Shown here: in pieces, positions 5,678 through 28,978 of the stretch
How positions within the stretch are numbered: the stretch's first letter is position 1
How the letters are laid out: the number at the start of each line of letters is the position of its first letter
Source: Bacteroidota bacterium
GTDB lineage: Bacteria > Bacteroidota > Bacteroidia > Cytophagales > UBA9547
Direction: 5' to 3'
NCBI GenBank assembly: GCA_004293915.1
Contig: RDZG01000103.1
Location: 1 to 40,427, forward strand
Length of the DNA: 40,427 nucleotides
Program-made: the position numbers and the translations under genes
Notes under the pieces: model-generated
Told to the model about the DNA's origin: nothing
The model's database searches: none
The model's input: only the letters and a program-made list of their open reading frames with translations

Positions 5678-6574
5678 ATGAAAAAAGTCATTTTTGTTAC
5701 TTTTTGTGTTCAGTTTAGTTTTTTATCTTTTGCTCAAAAAAGTAAAAATGTAGCTGCTTCTTATCAGCTAAAAGTTGAAAACGGGATTTCAATTGAAGCT
5801 GCACAACAAAAAGCGTGCGATTTTGCTCGCGTAGAAGCTATGGAAGCAGAGTTTGGCAGGGTGGTAATTCAAGGCAATAGCACTTATATCGAAAATATTG
5901 AAACTGGTAAAAAAGTTGAAAGCAAATCGGTTTTTAACATGACCGCAGACACTTATGTAAATGCAGAATGGCTAGAAGATACGCAAAAACCTAAGCTCGA
6001 AAAGTTTTTGAATAAAGATGATATTTGGGTAAAATGTTCGGTTGAAGGCAAAGCTATCGAAATCAAAAATGCTCCAATTGATATTTTGGCAGAAACCATG
6101 GATTGCCCCAAAATAAGTTGCAAAACTACTGATTTTCAAAACGAAGAATCCATGTTTTTGCTTTTTAAATCGCCAAAAGATGGCTTTGTTTCTGTATTTT
6201 TAGATGATAGAACAACTTCTTTTTGTATTTATCCTTATCAAAATATGAGTTACGAACAATTTGTAAATCAGAAGTTTATGGCTCAAAAAGAATATTATTT
6301 TTTCGATAAATCTAATCCGTTTTTAAGTAATAAATCTATTATTGATGAATTAAATCTTGTAACAGAAAAACCTCAAGAAAGCAATCGTGTTTTTGTTGTT
6401 TTTTCTGAAAATGCTTTAGTTATTCCTGTGTTAGACGATAAAAAACAAAATGCTGATTTGAGTTTTATTCCACGTTCGATACCTTCCGAAAAATTTCAAA
6501 AATGGTTGCAAAATATTAGAATCAAAGATAAAACTGCACAAGTAAAAATTTTAGATGTAACTATTAAAAAGTAA
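5678..6574 (+). CDS. Exported DUF4384-like protein of the protease cluster
   Basis: The 298 aa protein has a signal peptide ending SFLSFAQ (about residue 20). Residues about 24-130 form a domain with an alternating A-x3-A helix (SIEAAQQKACDFARVEAME) and beta strands, recalling LPP20-like domains. Residues about 155-260 contain ESMFLLFKSPKDGFVSVFLD followed by CIYPYQ, which resembles DUF4384, a domain often found fused to or next to secreted caspase-like proteins. It is convergent with the TPR-CHAT gene, the two stop codons only four bases apart, and has its own promoter. The function is unknown. The context suggests it works with the exported caspase/CHAT proteins, perhaps as substrate or regulator (inference). 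Confidence 0.7.
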   Translation: MKKVIFVTFCVQFSFLSFAQKSKNVAASYQLKVENGISIEAAQQKACDFARVEAMEAEFGRVVIQGNSTYIENIETGKKVESKSVFNMTADTYVNAEWLEDTQKPKLEKFLNKDDIWVKCSVEGKAIEIKNAPIDILAETMDCPKISCKTTDFQNEESMFLLFKSPKDGFVSVFLDDRTTSFCIYPYQNMSYEQFVNQKFMAQKEYYFFDKSNPFLSNKSIIDELNLVTEKPQESNRVFVVFSENALVIPVLDDKKQNADLSFIPRSIPSEKFQKWLQNIRIKDKTAQVKILDVTIKK

Positions 6575-6578
6575 AATT

Positions 6579-9413
6579 TTAATTTCCCAAATAGATAAAA
6601 GCCCCCCAAAAATAAGGATGGTTAAACTTTTTCAGGGTCTTTAATTGGGCTATATGCAGTGCCTCACGTTTGTTTTTTGTTTGCAAATAATTTTTATAAA
6701 ATTCAATCATCAATTCTTTAGTAGAATTATCGTTTACTGTCCAGAGGCTCATAATAATGGATTTTGCACCAGCCGAAAGTATGGCACGTTGCAAACCAAA
6801 AACTCCTTCGCCATTTTTGATTTCTCCCAAACCTGTTTCGCAAGCCGAAAGCACAATCAATTCTATGTTTTCAAGATTTTTTTGGTTTAATTCATAAGCA
6901 GAAAGCAATCCATCGTAGCGTTTGCTCAAATTTACATCTGCCAAAACCAAACCCGAACGCAAAAGTGGTTCTTTTGATGTAACATCCGAATTTTTTGAAG
7001 GTACAAAATAACCGTGTGTAGCTAAATGAATGATGCTTTTTGCTGATTCAATAGAATCTGTAACAGACTTAAAATAAGCATGTGTACTTATTTTGACTTT
7101 TCTTTTTTGGGCTGATTCATAAAAACTTTCTTCTGTAGCTTTTTCTTTAATATAGATGTCGATTTTTTTTCCTGAATTTTGCAAAAGTTGTCCAATTTGT
7201 TTAATCTCATCTTCGGTTTCTGGCAAATCGCTAAATGGAATATTCGATGCAGCAGCTGCAGCTCTAGTTGCATCTCGCTCAGTATCAGTGCCTCCAGCAT
7301 TTCCTTCTAAGTTATAGCTTGGTCTGCCAAAGAGATAAAACGAATTAATTTCATCTGTTTGCTTTTTGTTATTTATGTCGCTTTTTGCTATATCGCCAGG
7401 ATTTGTAACATAATCAATTCTGTATTTTTCGATTACGTATTTATTCGTTTTTGGATTTTTTAGTGTCGAAATATTTACTTGATTATATACGCCATCATTT
7501 GAAAAATAAACAGATTTTATGTTTTCTCCCAAATACTTTTCAATCGGACTCCAAAAAACGTTAAACGACTCTAAATCATCTTGTTGCGATTTGATACTAT
7601 TTCTATAATATTTTATATAACGTTTTTCTAAATCTGTACTTTTGGCAATTTCTATAAGTTTTGGATTGGCAAATGATTTTTGCAAAATCAAAGCATAATA
7701 TATAGCCGAATCTTTAGTAATTCTTACTCTAAAAACATCCACCATTGCTTCTGTTTCAGAAAGTGAAGTTTGAATTCTTTTCCATCCTAAAATTTTGTTT
7801 TCATATTCTGACGAAAGTGTTAATCGTGTAAAAAGCTTTTTTTCGAGTGTGTTTATTTTAAAAACTAACTCATTAAGTTCTCTTTTAGATTTTTCATCAA
7901 AAGCACCTTTTTGATATAGTTTTGTAAGTTTAACTTTCTCATCTTCAATAGTTTGATGAATTTTCAGATTTGAAGTGTCTTTAATTTGCGACAATTGCTG
8001 TTTGGTCGAATTTAGTGAATTTAATACAAAGCCTTTTTGATTGATTTCAAAATCGAGCAACATTCCAGTAAAAGTTGTTGTTGATTTTGGATTTGCTTTG
8101 CCTAGCAATCCACTTCTATGCACACAAAAACGCTTAATATTATTGAAATAATTTTCATTTTTATCATAATATTTTAGTCTTTCTTTTTCAGTTAATTTTG
8201 GAAAATTGTTTAATAATTCAGCTTTTTTAGATGTATAAGATTTGATTAACATTTCGTCTGAAATCAAATCGATTTCATCAATATTTGAAGCAAATTCGAT
8301 GTATCTAGCCAAAAAATAACTATACTCAAAGCTGTCGTGCAATTTGTTTTCAGTAAAAAAAGTATTTAAAGCTAAAAAATGTGTTTTAGCATTTTCAATA
8401 TCGTTATTTAAGTAAGTTGCATAAGCCAAATTGATTTTATTGATGATATAATCTCTATTTTTTTGAAAGTTTTCGATATTTTTTTCAAAAGATTTTTGAC
8501 AAAATTCTACTAAACTATAATACTTTTTGTTTAATCCTTTTTTTGCAACCAGCTCGGCATAATTTGCAAGCATATTTGCGTATTCTGCTGATTCTATGGA
8601 TGAAATTTCTGCTTTCTTTTTTAAAGCTGCTAAAAATATTTTTTCGCTTTCTTCTAAATTATTACTATAAAAAGATGCAGAAGCCAAATTTATCATGGTA
8701 TTAACTTCTGATGAAACATCTTTTTGCTCTAATCTTTTTTTATACTCAAGTGATTTGTTTAAATAAATTATAGCAAGGTCGTAAAATCCGATGTTTAAAT
8801 ATAATTCACCTAAATTATTAACAATTTTTGCATATGTATTTGAACTTCGCTCATTTATTTCTTCAAGTTTTTCCAAACAAGTTTTGTACAATGGCTCAGC
8901 TTCTGAATATTCGCCTGTTGTAACATATAAATCGGCAAGGTTATTTAAAAAAATCGCGTATTCAACCGTATTTGACGTTTTTTTTGCTTTATTATAATCT
9001 AAAGATTCAATATAATATTTTTTTGCTTTTTGATAATTGCCAATTTCAGCATGTGCAGCAGCCAAATTATTGAGCAAAGAACCAAATATTTTTGTTTTTC
9101 TGCTGTTTTCAATGTTTTGTAGATTTATTGCTTTTTCAAAAACAGAAATTGCATCCGAATAATTTGTGTTTTTGTAATGTATTAAGCCAATTTGGTTAAT
9201 TATATAATAGTATTTTTCGTCATCTGTTACACCCTTTTTTTCGTATAACGTTTTGGCTATTAGATATTTATCAAATGCAGATTTTAAATTTTCGGTTTTA
9301 TAATATGCATCCGCTTGGGCTAAAATTGCTTGTTTTTCTGCAATATTTTCTGTTTGTGAAAAACTAAAAAAGTAGGATAAAATGGCAAAAAATAAAATAG
9401 ATTTTCTCTTCAT
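6579..9413 (-). CDS. Secreted TPR-CHAT protease
   Basis: The 944 aa protein has a signal peptide (MKRKSILFFAILSYFFSFSQ), then tetratricopeptide-type helical repeats over about residues 25-370 (for example LLNNLAAAHAEIGNYQKAKKYY and FLNNLADLYVTTGEYSEAEPLY), a helical linker, and a C-terminal CHAT domain (about 620-944). CHAT is a caspase/separase-like clan CD peptidase. The expected dyad is present: His800 in HLATHGYF and Cys858 in LSACETGLGE. The LPETEDEI motif and PLLRSGLVLADVN typical of CHAT are also seen. It ends an operon with the caspase and LPP20-like genes, nine bases after the latter. Known TPR-CHAT proteins (Craspase partner) are cytoplasmic; this one is predicted to be periplasmic or surface-exposed. 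The substrate is unknown. Confidence 0.93.
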   Translation of the reverse strand: MKRKSILFFAILSYFFSFSQTENIAEKQAILAQADAYYKTENLKSAFDKYLIAKTLYEKKGVTDDEKYYYIINQIGLIHYKNTNYSDAISVFEKAINLQNIENSRKTKIFGSLLNNLAAAHAEIGNYQKAKKYYIESLDYNKAKKTSNTVEYAIFLNNLADLYVTTGEYSEAEPLYKTCLEKLEEINERSSNTYAKIVNNLGELYLNIGFYDLAIIYLNKSLEYKKRLEQKDVSSEVNTMINLASASFYSNNLEESEKIFLAALKKKAEISSIESAEYANMLANYAELVAKKGLNKKYYSLVEFCQKSFEKNIENFQKNRDYIINKINLAYATYLNNDIENAKTHFLALNTFFTENKLHDSFEYSYFLARYIEFASNIDEIDLISDEMLIKSYTSKKAELLNNFPKLTEKERLKYYDKNENYFNNIKRFCVHRSGLLGKANPKSTTTFTGMLLDFEINQKGFVLNSLNSTKQQLSQIKDTSNLKIHQTIEDEKVKLTKLYQKGAFDEKSKRELNELVFKINTLEKKLFTRLTLSSEYENKILGWKRIQTSLSETEAMVDVFRVRITKDSAIYYALILQKSFANPKLIEIAKSTDLEKRYIKYYRNSIKSQQDDLESFNVFWSPIEKYLGENIKSVYFSNDGVYNQVNISTLKNPKTNKYVIEKYRIDYVTNPGDIAKSDINNKKQTDEINSFYLFGRPSYNLEGNAGGTDTERDATRAAAAASNIPFSDLPETEDEIKQIGQLLQNSGKKIDIYIKEKATEESFYESAQKRKVKISTHAYFKSVTDSIESAKSIIHLATHGYFVPSKNSDVTSKEPLLRSGLVLADVNLSKRYDGLLSAYELNQKNLENIELIVLSACETGLGEIKNGEGVFGLQRAILSAGAKSIIMSLWTVNDNSTKELMIEFYKNYLQTKNKREALHIAQLKTLKKFNHPYFWGAFIYLGN

Positions 9414-9422
9414 TTTTTAAAA

Positions 9423-10097
9423 CTATTGGTCTAATCCCAAAATTTTATCTAAGTTTTCTTTCACAACATTTGTTTCTTCTTCAAGTTTTTTTCGAATGGC
9501 TTTTTTTGCCGTTTGTTCAGCCACTTTTGCATTTGTGCCCACATGTACAGCGCATTGGGTATTCCCATCGGATGTTTTTTTGTATATTTCAACAAGTGTT
9601 ACAACTCTTGCTAAGTTCGTAGAAATTACATTATTTGATGCGGCAACTACTTTTTGAATATTGCTTGCTTCGTCAGCAGAAATAGAATTACTTACTAAAC
9701 TACTTTCTATCAAACCACTAATATTTGATGCCAATTGAGCACTTAGCTCTAGTTTTGCCAATTCAATTGCAGCCAATTTTGCAGCCATTTGCGTATTTCC
9801 TGTCGATTGTGCAAATGCAGTGTACCAAGCTGGATATCCCTCAGTATCAGTCTCTTGGCGTTTGATATAAAACCCATCTAGTTTGTTTTTTAGTGGTAAA
9901 TCTCCTGGTGGAGTTTCCCAACCTTCTTTAATTAATCTTGCCCCTTCTTTTTTTGCTTGTTTTCCAACTTTTTCGTTTAGTTCTTTTCTAAGTTGTTTTT
10001 CTTTTTTTTGTTGCTCAATGTTTGATTCTTTTGATGAATCTTGAGCAAAACAAAAAACACATTGAGCAAGAATAAAACTGATGATTATTTTTTTCAT
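9423..10097 (-). CDS. Exported LPP20-like protein
   Basis: The 224 aa protein begins with a signal peptide ending CVFCFAQ (no proper lipobox). It continues with a charged helix (about 25-60) and a domain whose centre TQMAAKLAAIELAKLELSAQ followed by later beta strands VVTLVEIYKK and TQCAVHVGTN resembles the LPP20 family, named after a Helicobacter lipoprotein, where an Ala-rich helix packs on a sheet. A charged helical tail closes it. It lies between the caspase (12-base gap) and TPR-CHAT (9-base gap) genes and should be translated from the same mRNA. Its biochemical role is unknown; a scaffold or substrate for the proteases is inference. The family call is moderate because it rests on pattern alone. 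Confidence 0.6.
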   Translation of the reverse strand: MKKIIISFILAQCVFCFAQDSSKESNIEQQKKEKQLRKELNEKVGKQAKKEGARLIKEGWETPPGDLPLKNKLDGFYIKRQETDTEGYPAWYTAFAQSTGNTQMAAKLAAIELAKLELSAQLASNISGLIESSLVSNSISADEASNIQKVVAASNNVISTNLARVVTLVEIYKKTSDGNTQCAVHVGTNAKVAEQTAKKAIRKKLEEETNVVKENLDKILGLDQ

Positions 10098-10109
10098 TTT
10101 TCAGAATAT

Positions 10110-11546
10110 TTATTTGTTTAAATTATAGTTTTCTATGGTATTAATCACATCATCGCTCATCAACATTTGCGGAGTTTGTTCTTTATCGTTTATAGTTAAT
10201 GAGTTGATAGACACTTCTTTGCGAACAGCGTCATACAGGTTTTTATAGCTAATGTTTCCGCCAGATTCTTTTATTTTTTTCAAAAGAAAATAAGTAAACA
10301 TCCCGTGTTTTTTGTCTTTATATGGCAAAGATGATTGTTCGCCATTACTTGCACTAAATACCACTAAATTGCCATTTAGTTTTTGCTCTGTAGCTTTAAC
10401 TTTTACACCTCTTGCAGCTATAAGTCCTTGATTTCTAGCACCTCCACTAAAACATGCATCAATAAAAACGGTAACTTTTTTGGATGGAAATTCAGTGAGT
10501 TTAGTATAGAAATCCTTTAGTTTTATGCCATCGCTTGGGTTTTTGCCACTTACATCAACAGGAATTAAATAAGGTTCTTTTGAAACTTCATCTGGCAAAC
10601 CATGACCTGCATAAAACACAAAAACATCTGCTTCGCCTTCTAATGTTTTTATCAAAAGATTTGTTTTTGCCACAGCCTGGCGCATTTTTGCAGATGTAGC
10701 GTTGGTTACAAAAATGATTCTGTCTTGCGAAATTCCTAAAAGTTTAGTGCAATATTCTTTAAATGCGTGTGCATCGTTCATGGCATAATCCACATTGCTT
10801 TCCGAAGACAAATCCATTTGGTAGGTTTTATAATCTTCGTTACCAATAATCAAAGCTATTCTGTTTTGTTTTGATAAATTATTTTTTTCTATTATGTCAA
10901 CATCTGATTTTTTTTCATACATATAGCCTATACTCGAAGATGCAGTTTCTGAAATCACAATTCTTTCGCTATCTCTTTGTTTTTCAGGTTGTTGGGCAAT
11001 ATTGTTTACAGGTTGATTTTGAGTTTGAACAACGGTTTGGGTAGTATTTTTTTGCGTATTTTTTTGTGAAACTACAGTTTCTAATCCATCATAAAAAGTA
11101 TTTGGTTCGAGTACAAACAATTCGTCTTTTGTGCAATTTTCCGTTTTTACCCATTTTGAAATTCGCATCAAACGTGTTCCTTCTTTCCAGTTTCCAAAAC
11201 TTAACGACACAATTCCATCGTTGGACATCGGCAAAGATGGGTCGAAAATCATATAAACATTTCCTTTTCCATTGCTTTGCAATTCTTCATAAAATTCTAA
11301 TTTTTTGTTTTGAATAGCTATTTTTTTTGCTGGCGATGTTAGTTTGTAGCCATGCCATTTTTCAGAATAATTATCTGCACCTCTGTTTTGTGCCACATCT
11401 AGTGTACCAACAACTTCATTATTAACCAATAACTCAAAACTTTCTTTTGCATTTGCCGATTTAGAAAGTTTGTTGATAATTAAATATTGTCCATTTGTAA
11501 AAAAACTTAGTGATAATAAAGTTGAAATTAAGATTGACGGTTTCAT
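10110..11546 (-). CDS. Secreted caspase-family (peptidase C14) protein
   Basis: The 478 aa protein has a signal peptide ending SFFTNG (about 19), an unrecognised beta-rich N-terminal domain (about 20-155), a Gln/Asn/Thr-rich linker (about 160-195) and a caspase-like p20 domain from about 228 (NRIALIIGNEDY). The catalytic dyad is intact: His315 in FYAGHG and Cys365 in FIDACFSGG. The later SASNGEQSSLPYKDKKHGMF segment is typical of bacterial caspase homologues (ortho/metacaspase-like). It is the first gene of the caspase-LPP20-CHAT operon. Family members cleave after basic or acidic residues; specificity cannot be read here. The signal peptide places activity outside the cytoplasm. Confidence 0.93.
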   Translation of the reverse strand: MKPSILISTLLSLSFFTNGQYLIINKLSKSANAKESFELLVNNEVVGTLDVAQNRGADNYSEKWHGYKLTSPAKKIAIQNKKLEFYEELQSNGKGNVYMIFDPSLPMSNDGIVSLSFGNWKEGTRLMRISKWVKTENCTKDELFVLEPNTFYDGLETVVSQKNTQKNTTQTVVQTQNQPVNNIAQQPEKQRDSERIVISETASSSIGYMYEKKSDVDIIEKNNLSKQNRIALIIGNEDYKTYQMDLSSESNVDYAMNDAHAFKEYCTKLLGISQDRIIFVTNATSAKMRQAVAKTNLLIKTLEGEADVFVFYAGHGLPDEVSKEPYLIPVDVSGKNPSDGIKLKDFYTKLTEFPSKKVTVFIDACFSGGARNQGLIAARGVKVKATEQKLNGNLVVFSASNGEQSSLPYKDKKHGMFTYFLLKKIKESGGNISYKNLYDAVRKEVSINSLTINDKEQTPQMLMSDDVINTIENYNLNK

Positions 11547-11580
11547 AATGTATTAAATTTTAATAAATGTACAAAAAAAT

Positions 11581-11611
11581 AAAGAGCAACAAAAATATTT
11601 TGTTGCTCTTT
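11581..11611 (-). terminator. Strong intrinsic terminator after the small lipoprotein gene
   Basis: A perfect 14-base-pair inverted repeat (arms 11581-11594 and 11598-11611, three-base loop) is followed on the minus strand by a T-rich tract. It lies between the lipoprotein gene (ends 11637) and the caspase gene (starts 11546). It should end lipoprotein transcription, or attenuate read-through into the protease operon. The stem also contains a TATTTTTG (-7-like) on the minus strand, at 11590-11597. Confidence 0.8.
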
Positions 11612-11636
11612 ATTAAAAATTGAATGACTAAAATTA

Positions 11637-12098
11637 TTATTTTTTTATTTTAGCCAAGCGAGTTGTTACTTTAGTTTTTGACGTTTTGTAAAAAAACAAA
11701 AAGCTTTTAGATGTATAATCATATTGCGGATAGAATACTGCATCGTATCCTGGATTATCTTTAATGATGTTAAAAACAGCATAGCCATTAACTCTAGTTG
11801 CTGCCAATGCAGGGTCTAATACATTACCAATAATTGGAACTGAACTTATTACACTACCTGCTGCTGAAGAGTAACCACCAATATTTCCACCATTAGTATT
11901 AAATAAACGAGCCCAGTCGATTCCCAAAATTTTGGTTTCAGATGCTTCGCCAGAAACTTGATTTGAATATTCAAAATCTTCTTTTTTGAATTGTACAAAA
12001 TTTGCAGGTGCGTATACTGATTTATATGCAGAAGAGCATCCCATTAAATAAAGCGACATAGTTGCCATTGCAACTTTTAATAAAGTGTAAAATTTCAT
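11637..12098 (-). CDS. Small lipoprotein, 153 aa, unknown function
   Basis: The protein has a lipoprotein signal with lipobox YLMGC, so Cys21 should be lipidated and the protein anchored to a membrane facing the periplasm or surface. After a linker it has QVSGEASETKILGIDWARLF, a motif that recurs in small Bacteroidota lipoproteins, a Gly/Ser-rich middle (about 70-95) and a C-terminal beta strand pair (YDAVFYPQYDYTSKSFLFFY). I cannot name the family. It has its own promoter and terminator and lies upstream of the secreted caspase operon on the same strand, so it may be part of that cluster, but this is not proven. Confidence 0.7.
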   Translation of the reverse strand: MKFYTLLKVAMATMSLYLMGCSSAYKSVYAPANFVQFKKEDFEYSNQVSGEASETKILGIDWARLFNTNGGNIGGYSSAAGSVISSVPIIGNVLDPALAATRVNGYAVFNIIKDNPGYDAVFYPQYDYTSKSFLFFYKTSKTKVTTRLAKIKK

Positions 12099-28321: not shown

Positions 28322-28978
28322 ATGCAAATTCCTGAAATAGAAAAATATATTACTGAATATAAAGCCAAAGGCTTAAAACTTTTTACTACCTCTAGTTTTC
28401 AGAGTCATAGTATTGTTTTGCTTCATATTTTGAGCAAAATAGATAATACAATTCCAATCTATTTTATAAATACAGGTTATTTATTTCCTGAAACCACAAA
28501 ATACAGAGATATGATTGTAGAACAATTTGGATTAAATCTCAAAAATGTATATTCACAAACTCCAAAAAGTTTACAAAAAGATAGTCAAGGTAGATTTTTA
28601 TTTACATCAGATCCAGATTATTGCTGCCACATTAATAAAGTAGAACCTTTAGATCCTATTTTAGGAGAATATGATGTTTGGATTAATGGCGTAAGGGCAG
28701 ACCAAAGTGCGGTTCGTAAAAGTTTTCAAATTGAAGAAAAAGCCCCTCATGATGTAATCCGTTTTCATCCTATGCTCGATTGGAATTCGATTCAGATTCA
28801 AAAATATTTGTTTCAAAATCAAATTCCGCCACATCCATTAGAAGAAAAAGGCTATTTTTCAATTGGTTGCGAACCTTGTACTCGCAAGTTTAGTACCGAT
28901 TTGTCGGAGCGAGAAGTACGTTGGTATGGACTAAATAAAACCGAATGTGGACTAAATACTGAACTTGTTAGCAAATAG
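28322..28978 (+). CDS. cysH: Iron-sulfur type phosphoadenylyl/adenylyl-sulfate reductase
   Basis: The enzyme reduces APS or PAPS to sulfite with thioredoxin or glutaredoxin in sulfate assimilation. I use the ATG at 28322 (218 aa); a TTG six bases upstream is in frame. Residues below are numbered from that TTG: a nucleotide-binding TTSSFQSHS (24-32) in place of the usual SxSGG-type loop, Cys103-Cys104 in DYCCHINKVEPL, Cys185 and Cys188 in GCEPCT, and catalytic Cys211 in KTECGL. The CC plus CxxC set binds a [4Fe-4S] cluster and marks the APS-reductase-like branch, though substrate choice cannot be decided from sequence alone. No other cys gene is in the window. It is likely monocistronic. Confidence 0.92.
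   Translation: MQIPEIEKYITEYKAKGLKLFTTSSFQSHSIVLLHILSKIDNTIPIYFINTGYLFPETTKYRDMIVEQFGLNLKNVYSQTPKSLQKDSQGRFLFTSDPDYCCHINKVEPLDPILGEYDVWINGVRADQSAVRKSFQIEEKAPHDVIRFHPMLDWNSIQIQKYLFQNQIPPHPLEEKGYFSIGCEPCTRKFSTDLSEREVRWYGLNKTECGLNTELVSK

Follow-up and report, generated by a model that had tools for sequence, protein, structure and literature searches.

The locus described here raises the question of whether two cysteine proteases encoded side by side, a putatively exported orthocaspase and a putatively exported TPR-CHAT protease, form a proteolytic system of their own, or whether the conserved element is found among the genes that accompany them. The window, that is, the whole stretch of DNA analysed, corresponds to an entire contig (C152) of 40,427 bases from a genome of 3.85 Mb, and includes the following features:

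5678-6574, plus strand: gene C, an ORF of 298 aa for a predicted exported DUF4384-like protein
6579-9413, minus strand: gene D, an ORF of 944 aa for a predicted exported TPR-CHAT cysteine protease
9423-10097, minus strand: gene E, an ORF of 224 aa for a predicted exported LPP20-like protein (SHS2/dodecin-type fold)
10110-11546, minus strand: gene F, an ORF of 478 aa for a predicted exported orthocaspase
11578-11614, minus strand: intrinsic terminator between G and F, with a 17-pair stem, a 3-base loop and a T-tract (fold z -7.3)
11637-12098, minus strand: gene G, an ORF for a small lipoprotein with the lipobox LMGC

A previous sequence-only reading considered these five genes as a single cluster in which both proteases shared an operon. 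Inspection of ORFs and motifs confirmed the five ORFs, their coordinates, both catalytic dyads and the short gaps of the minus strand, on which the gene order is F, E and D, with 12 bases between F and E and 9 bases between E and D. The operon would hold for these three co-directional genes but not for all five, since C is convergent with D, their ends being only 4 bases apart, and G lies behind the terminator. The position of this strong terminator, downstream of G and upstream of F, indicated that G most likely comprises its own transcription unit. Relatives of G were recovered in four other genomes of the order, none of them near E, C or F, and on both grounds its candidacy as a lipoprotein partner was rejected; the gene probably stands outside the module discussed below. 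A recent mobile-element insertion was also considered and discarded, as no tRNA was found within the window and its base composition resembles the rest. No syntenic empty site could be recognised, the core-gene flanks being different in both same-genus species.

The N-termini of C, D, E and F present lysine or arginine residues, a hydrophobic core, a small residue and a glutamine at position 19-20, and a glutamine at +1 corresponds to the Q-rule described for the signal peptidase I substrates of Bacteroidetes (PMC5837995). A simple signal scan detected sites in 23 of 70 N-termini against 1 of 70 internal stretches used as control, and a Q-type site in 16/16 relatives of C and 21/22 relatives of E, the signal glutamine being conserved without exception in the C family alignment. 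In the C and E proteins of the window, the scan halted at an earlier AQ/VQ (residue 12), and their 19-20 site was assigned by eye. Altogether, these features suggest that C, D, E and F are Sec-exported by means of Bacteroidota-type signals. The export proposed earlier for both proteases thus appears to be borne out by the Q-rule-type signals of D and F. The fifth protein, G, is a lipoprotein with a lipobox.

Regarding the caspase, F harbors a Peptidase_C14 domain (PF00656, residues 229-462, Pfam 9e-24) preceded by an N-terminal region without family assignment (residues about 20-225). Its dyad, H315/C365, is found within the motifs YAGHG and DACFSG, aligned with those of its relatives, as expected for a C14 orthocaspase domain; these motifs are kept in most of the relatives, and the DAC motif of F retains Asp363, two residues before Cys365. 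Cleavage by orthocaspases takes place after basic residues (PMC6426788). F is the sole C14 protein of the window genome, in which E and C are also single copies, and the three genes lie within 6 kb; none of the three was found in two other species of its genus. A caspase relative found in another genome of the set (L159:1572-3269, in G017) has AGRG and ETDF where the dyad should be; with both catalytic residues lost, it is an apparent pseudo-caspase.

The labels that had been given to the two smaller proteins were supported by indirect tests, even though Pfam returned no family above its cut-off for either. For E, LPP20 included, this was the case for the protein itself, and Pfam LPP20 was matched by 2 of its 22 relatives, the best at 0.034. 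However, two matches of the E profile in two distant genomes (L199 and L200) exceeded the Pfam cut-off for LPP20 (PF02169). In addition, a model of E obtained from three sequences (pLDDT 82) had H. pylori Lpp20, Tip-alpha and HP1454 as its seven best solved-structure matches, with modest Z scores of 6.8-7.9 (below 8) and unrelated structures from 5.6. Since the intermediate sequences and these matches to the Lpp20 group lead to the same family, the sequence and structure paths agree, and E is predicted to adopt an LPP20-like fold. This modelled fold and the intermediate sequences connect E to H. pylori Lpp20/Tip-alpha, FlgP and FlgT (PMC12222027), from which it differs by a long, charged, Lys/Arg-rich N-terminal helix, by a locus without flagellar genes and by its tie to a caspase. 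A sequence search of solved structures with the E and C profiles gave nothing significant, and the comparison of both profiles revealed no convincing relation between them (probability 7). Two relatives of E deserve a separate mention. One of them (L041:8583-9662) presents a C-terminal extension, which probably accounts for the lone DUF4476 match among E relatives (5e-19). The other was observed in a Chlorobiota MAG, the only contig with matches in a contig search with E alone, where two tandem copies, about 41% identical to the E of the window, occur with no C alongside (L050:2327-4180).

For C, the formal Pfam search gave no DUF4384 assignment; nevertheless, DUF4384 was weakly matched by 11 of the 16 members of its family (best 2.2e-4, below the gathering score), and this family-wide sub-threshold match identifies C as a probable DUF4384-like protein. 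Cys120, Cys143 and Cys148 are invariant in C, a trio that would fit an oxidising compartment. The single-sequence structure model of C was unusable (pLDDT 37). Orthocaspases often carry DUF4384 as an accessory domain, and the same coupling between caspase and DUF4384 is found in cyanobacteria (PMC8283722, PMC7475262); in the cyanobacterial orthocaspases, however, DUF4384 is fused in one protein, while in the window the two are separate, putatively exported proteins accompanied by an LPP20-like third partner.

The distribution of these genes was evaluated in a main sample of 148 genomes, all from the order of the window genome. E was found in 19 and C in 18 of them, occurring together in 18, so that C was present in 18 of the 19 E-genomes versus 0 of the 129 others. 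In a neighbourhood count that added further sampling of family f19, both genes were no more than 4 kb apart in 23 of 26 genomes from families f1, f15 and f19. Strong relatives of F (>80 bits) were present in 19/19 E-genomes versus 4/129 others, i.e., four genomes carry F-type caspases without E. When counted by genus, the co-occurrence of E and F-type caspases was 12/12 against 2/68, and by family it was 4/4 against 2/18 (Fisher, p 0.002), values that overstate independence, as the sampled genomes are related within families. Genomes of families f15 and f19 hold many caspases, and the caspase link of E and C could reflect these caspase-rich lineages. However, the co-occurrence also holds in f1 and f6, families with few caspases, and the three f15 genomes without E (G014, G075 and G116) are devoid of F-type caspases as well. 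In a phylum-wide sample of 296 genomes, weak E matches were detected in three genomes only and C nowhere outside the window genome, which indicates that the E-C pair is lineage-restricted.

The neighbourhoods of these genes in other genomes revealed how the pair is combined with further components. In G049, the order is a CsgG-like gene, a caspase with a DUF6175 region, E and C. G063 and G131 carry a second copy of E, placed beside genes for a DUF4384 protein, a PD40/OmpA protein, a protein of 771-773 aa, a TPR-caspase and a WD40-caspase. Together with the window, these constitute three separate arrangements that join E-type, DUF4384-type and caspase genes. A co-directional run in G436 (L204:7318-14228) comprises DUF4384, CsgG-like, a 599 aa protein, E and C with no caspase, and most E-C loci likewise have no adjacent caspase. 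Caspases of the F kind are paired with a CsgG-like protein in G104 and with a DUF6175 protein in G005. These arrangements indicated that an E-C envelope module has been repeatedly joined by a caspase, and that a TPR-CHAT gene joins it only in the window. The association proposed earlier was thus recovered as a link of the E-C pair with caspases, but not as a five-gene unit with two proteases, since none of the other loci examined pairs a D relative with relatives of E, C or F. As a separate observation, one genome has an exported caspase with DUF6175 fused to it, and in a second genome DUF6175 is encoded 12 bases ahead of such a caspase (L031:6476-7897 and L161:4637-6928), which suggests that DUF6175 is a further caspase partner.

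In light of these findings, the explanation that we favour, with about an even chance of being right, is that the locus carries a conserved exported envelope module, in which the LPP20-fold E and the DUF4384-like C are joined in several lineages by CsgG-like or OmpA-like proteins and by an orthocaspase that is also exported, F in the window. Peptidoglycan is bound by OmpA domains, and the outer membrane is where CsgG-like proteins are located. The LPP20-fold proteins FlgP and FlgT, in turn, form outer-membrane-associated rings (PMC12222027). From these likenesses, E and C may act together as a scaffold, either periplasmic or associated with the outer membrane. F would be the protease of this scaffold, cutting after basic residues by analogy with known orthocaspases once the scaffold senses damage or contact, and its substrate could be a scaffold component or another envelope or surface protein. 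More speculatively, the N-terminal helix of E might be a target of F. D, flanked by E and C, would be a genome-specific recruit that is translated along with E and F and probably works in the compartment that they occupy.

Exported orthocaspases themselves are not new. Likely export of prokaryotic caspases was already noted in 2012, and the portions of that study considered here describe metacaspases and orthocaspases with a C14 p20 domain, an HC dyad and an N-terminal helix that is likely a signal, many of them in Bacteroidota, and also propose a surface or extracellular role for them (PMC3501461). What distinguishes the window locus is the recurrence of LPP20-like and DUF4384-like partner genes, which are not described in those portions (PMC3501461), and no description of such a partner pair for exported orthocaspases was found in the literature searched. 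The recurrent pair provides named substrate or scaffold candidates for exported bacterial caspases, which are common but have few known partners or substrates. A clean genetic test is possible in the window genome, where a single caspase, a single E and a single C are found within 6 kb.

A different interpretation, which we regard as possible though somewhat unlikely, is that E and C belong to a caspase-independent envelope assembly of the CsgG/LPP20 type, and that the proteases adjoin it by chance, given the abundance of both caspases and CHAT proteins in these lineages. The predominance of E-C loci devoid of caspases, including the G436 run with its CsgG and DUF4384 genes, is what would be expected from such an assembly, as is the abundance of caspases in f15 and f19. 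Evidence against chance adjacency comes from the window, where the sole C14 gene and the sole E gene of the genome belong to one operon, from the repetition of the caspase link in G049 and in the second G063/G131 locus, and from the co-occurrence observed in the caspase-poor families f1 and f6.

Another interpretation is a two-protease periplasmic cascade, as put forward by the sequence-only reading, in which F and D would be exported together, one activating the other, with E or C as substrate or scaffold. D comprises a CHAT domain (PF12770, 7.7e-59) and TPR_12 repeats (9.5e-23), both from Pfam, and a dyad, H800/C858, within the motifs ATHGYF and SACETG. The intact dyads of both proteases, their export signals and the 9- and 12-base gaps that bind D, E and F are in favour of such a cascade, which is nonetheless improbable. 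The D gene is located between E and C only in the window genome, no D relative adjoins relatives of E, C or F at any other locus examined, and E-C and caspase modules elsewhere occur without CHAT. A conserved caspase-CHAT pair was accordingly rejected, given that the D-F pairing has no second example. The full gene order was not conserved either, the outcome that the sequence-only reading had named as refuting, and both same-genus species lack E and C as well as F and G. Moreover, the window genome encodes six exported CHAT proteins besides D, all of which keep the dyad motifs, but no further caspase; as all seven (7/7) carry a comparable N-terminal signal, an exported TPR-CHAT protein is unremarkable in this genome. 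A narrower version, in which the TPR-CHAT protein entered the LPP20/DUF4384/caspase module and, outside the cytoplasm, would either activate the caspase or be activated by it, the Lys/Arg-rich helix of E being the caspase substrate, is a long shot.

A role in defence or cell death, along the lines of Craspase or gasdermin systems, is highly improbable, for although CHAT and caspase domains are found in such systems (PMC10028731), here all parts present export signals, the neighbours are housekeeping and envelope genes, the window contains no CRISPR-type repeats, and PADLOC gave no defence match in the cluster except a generic caspase model. D shares its TPR and CHAT protease architecture with Csx29 of Craspase (PMC10028731), from which it differs by its predicted export, by having neither a Cas7-11 partner nor a CRISPR array, and by being one of many exported CHAT paralogs. 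The scanned neighbours included no Cas7-11 domain, which, together with the lack of CRISPR repeats in the window, sets D apart from Craspase (type III-E). Elsewhere in the window, a protein encoded at 28322-28978 matched the PADLOC BrxP model (5e-10), away from any evident defence locus, and the match probably reflects a generic domain. Three tandem and very similar ORFs of ~192 aa, one of them cut by the contig end, were observed in the same genome close to a further exported CHAT gene (L179:1-1549).
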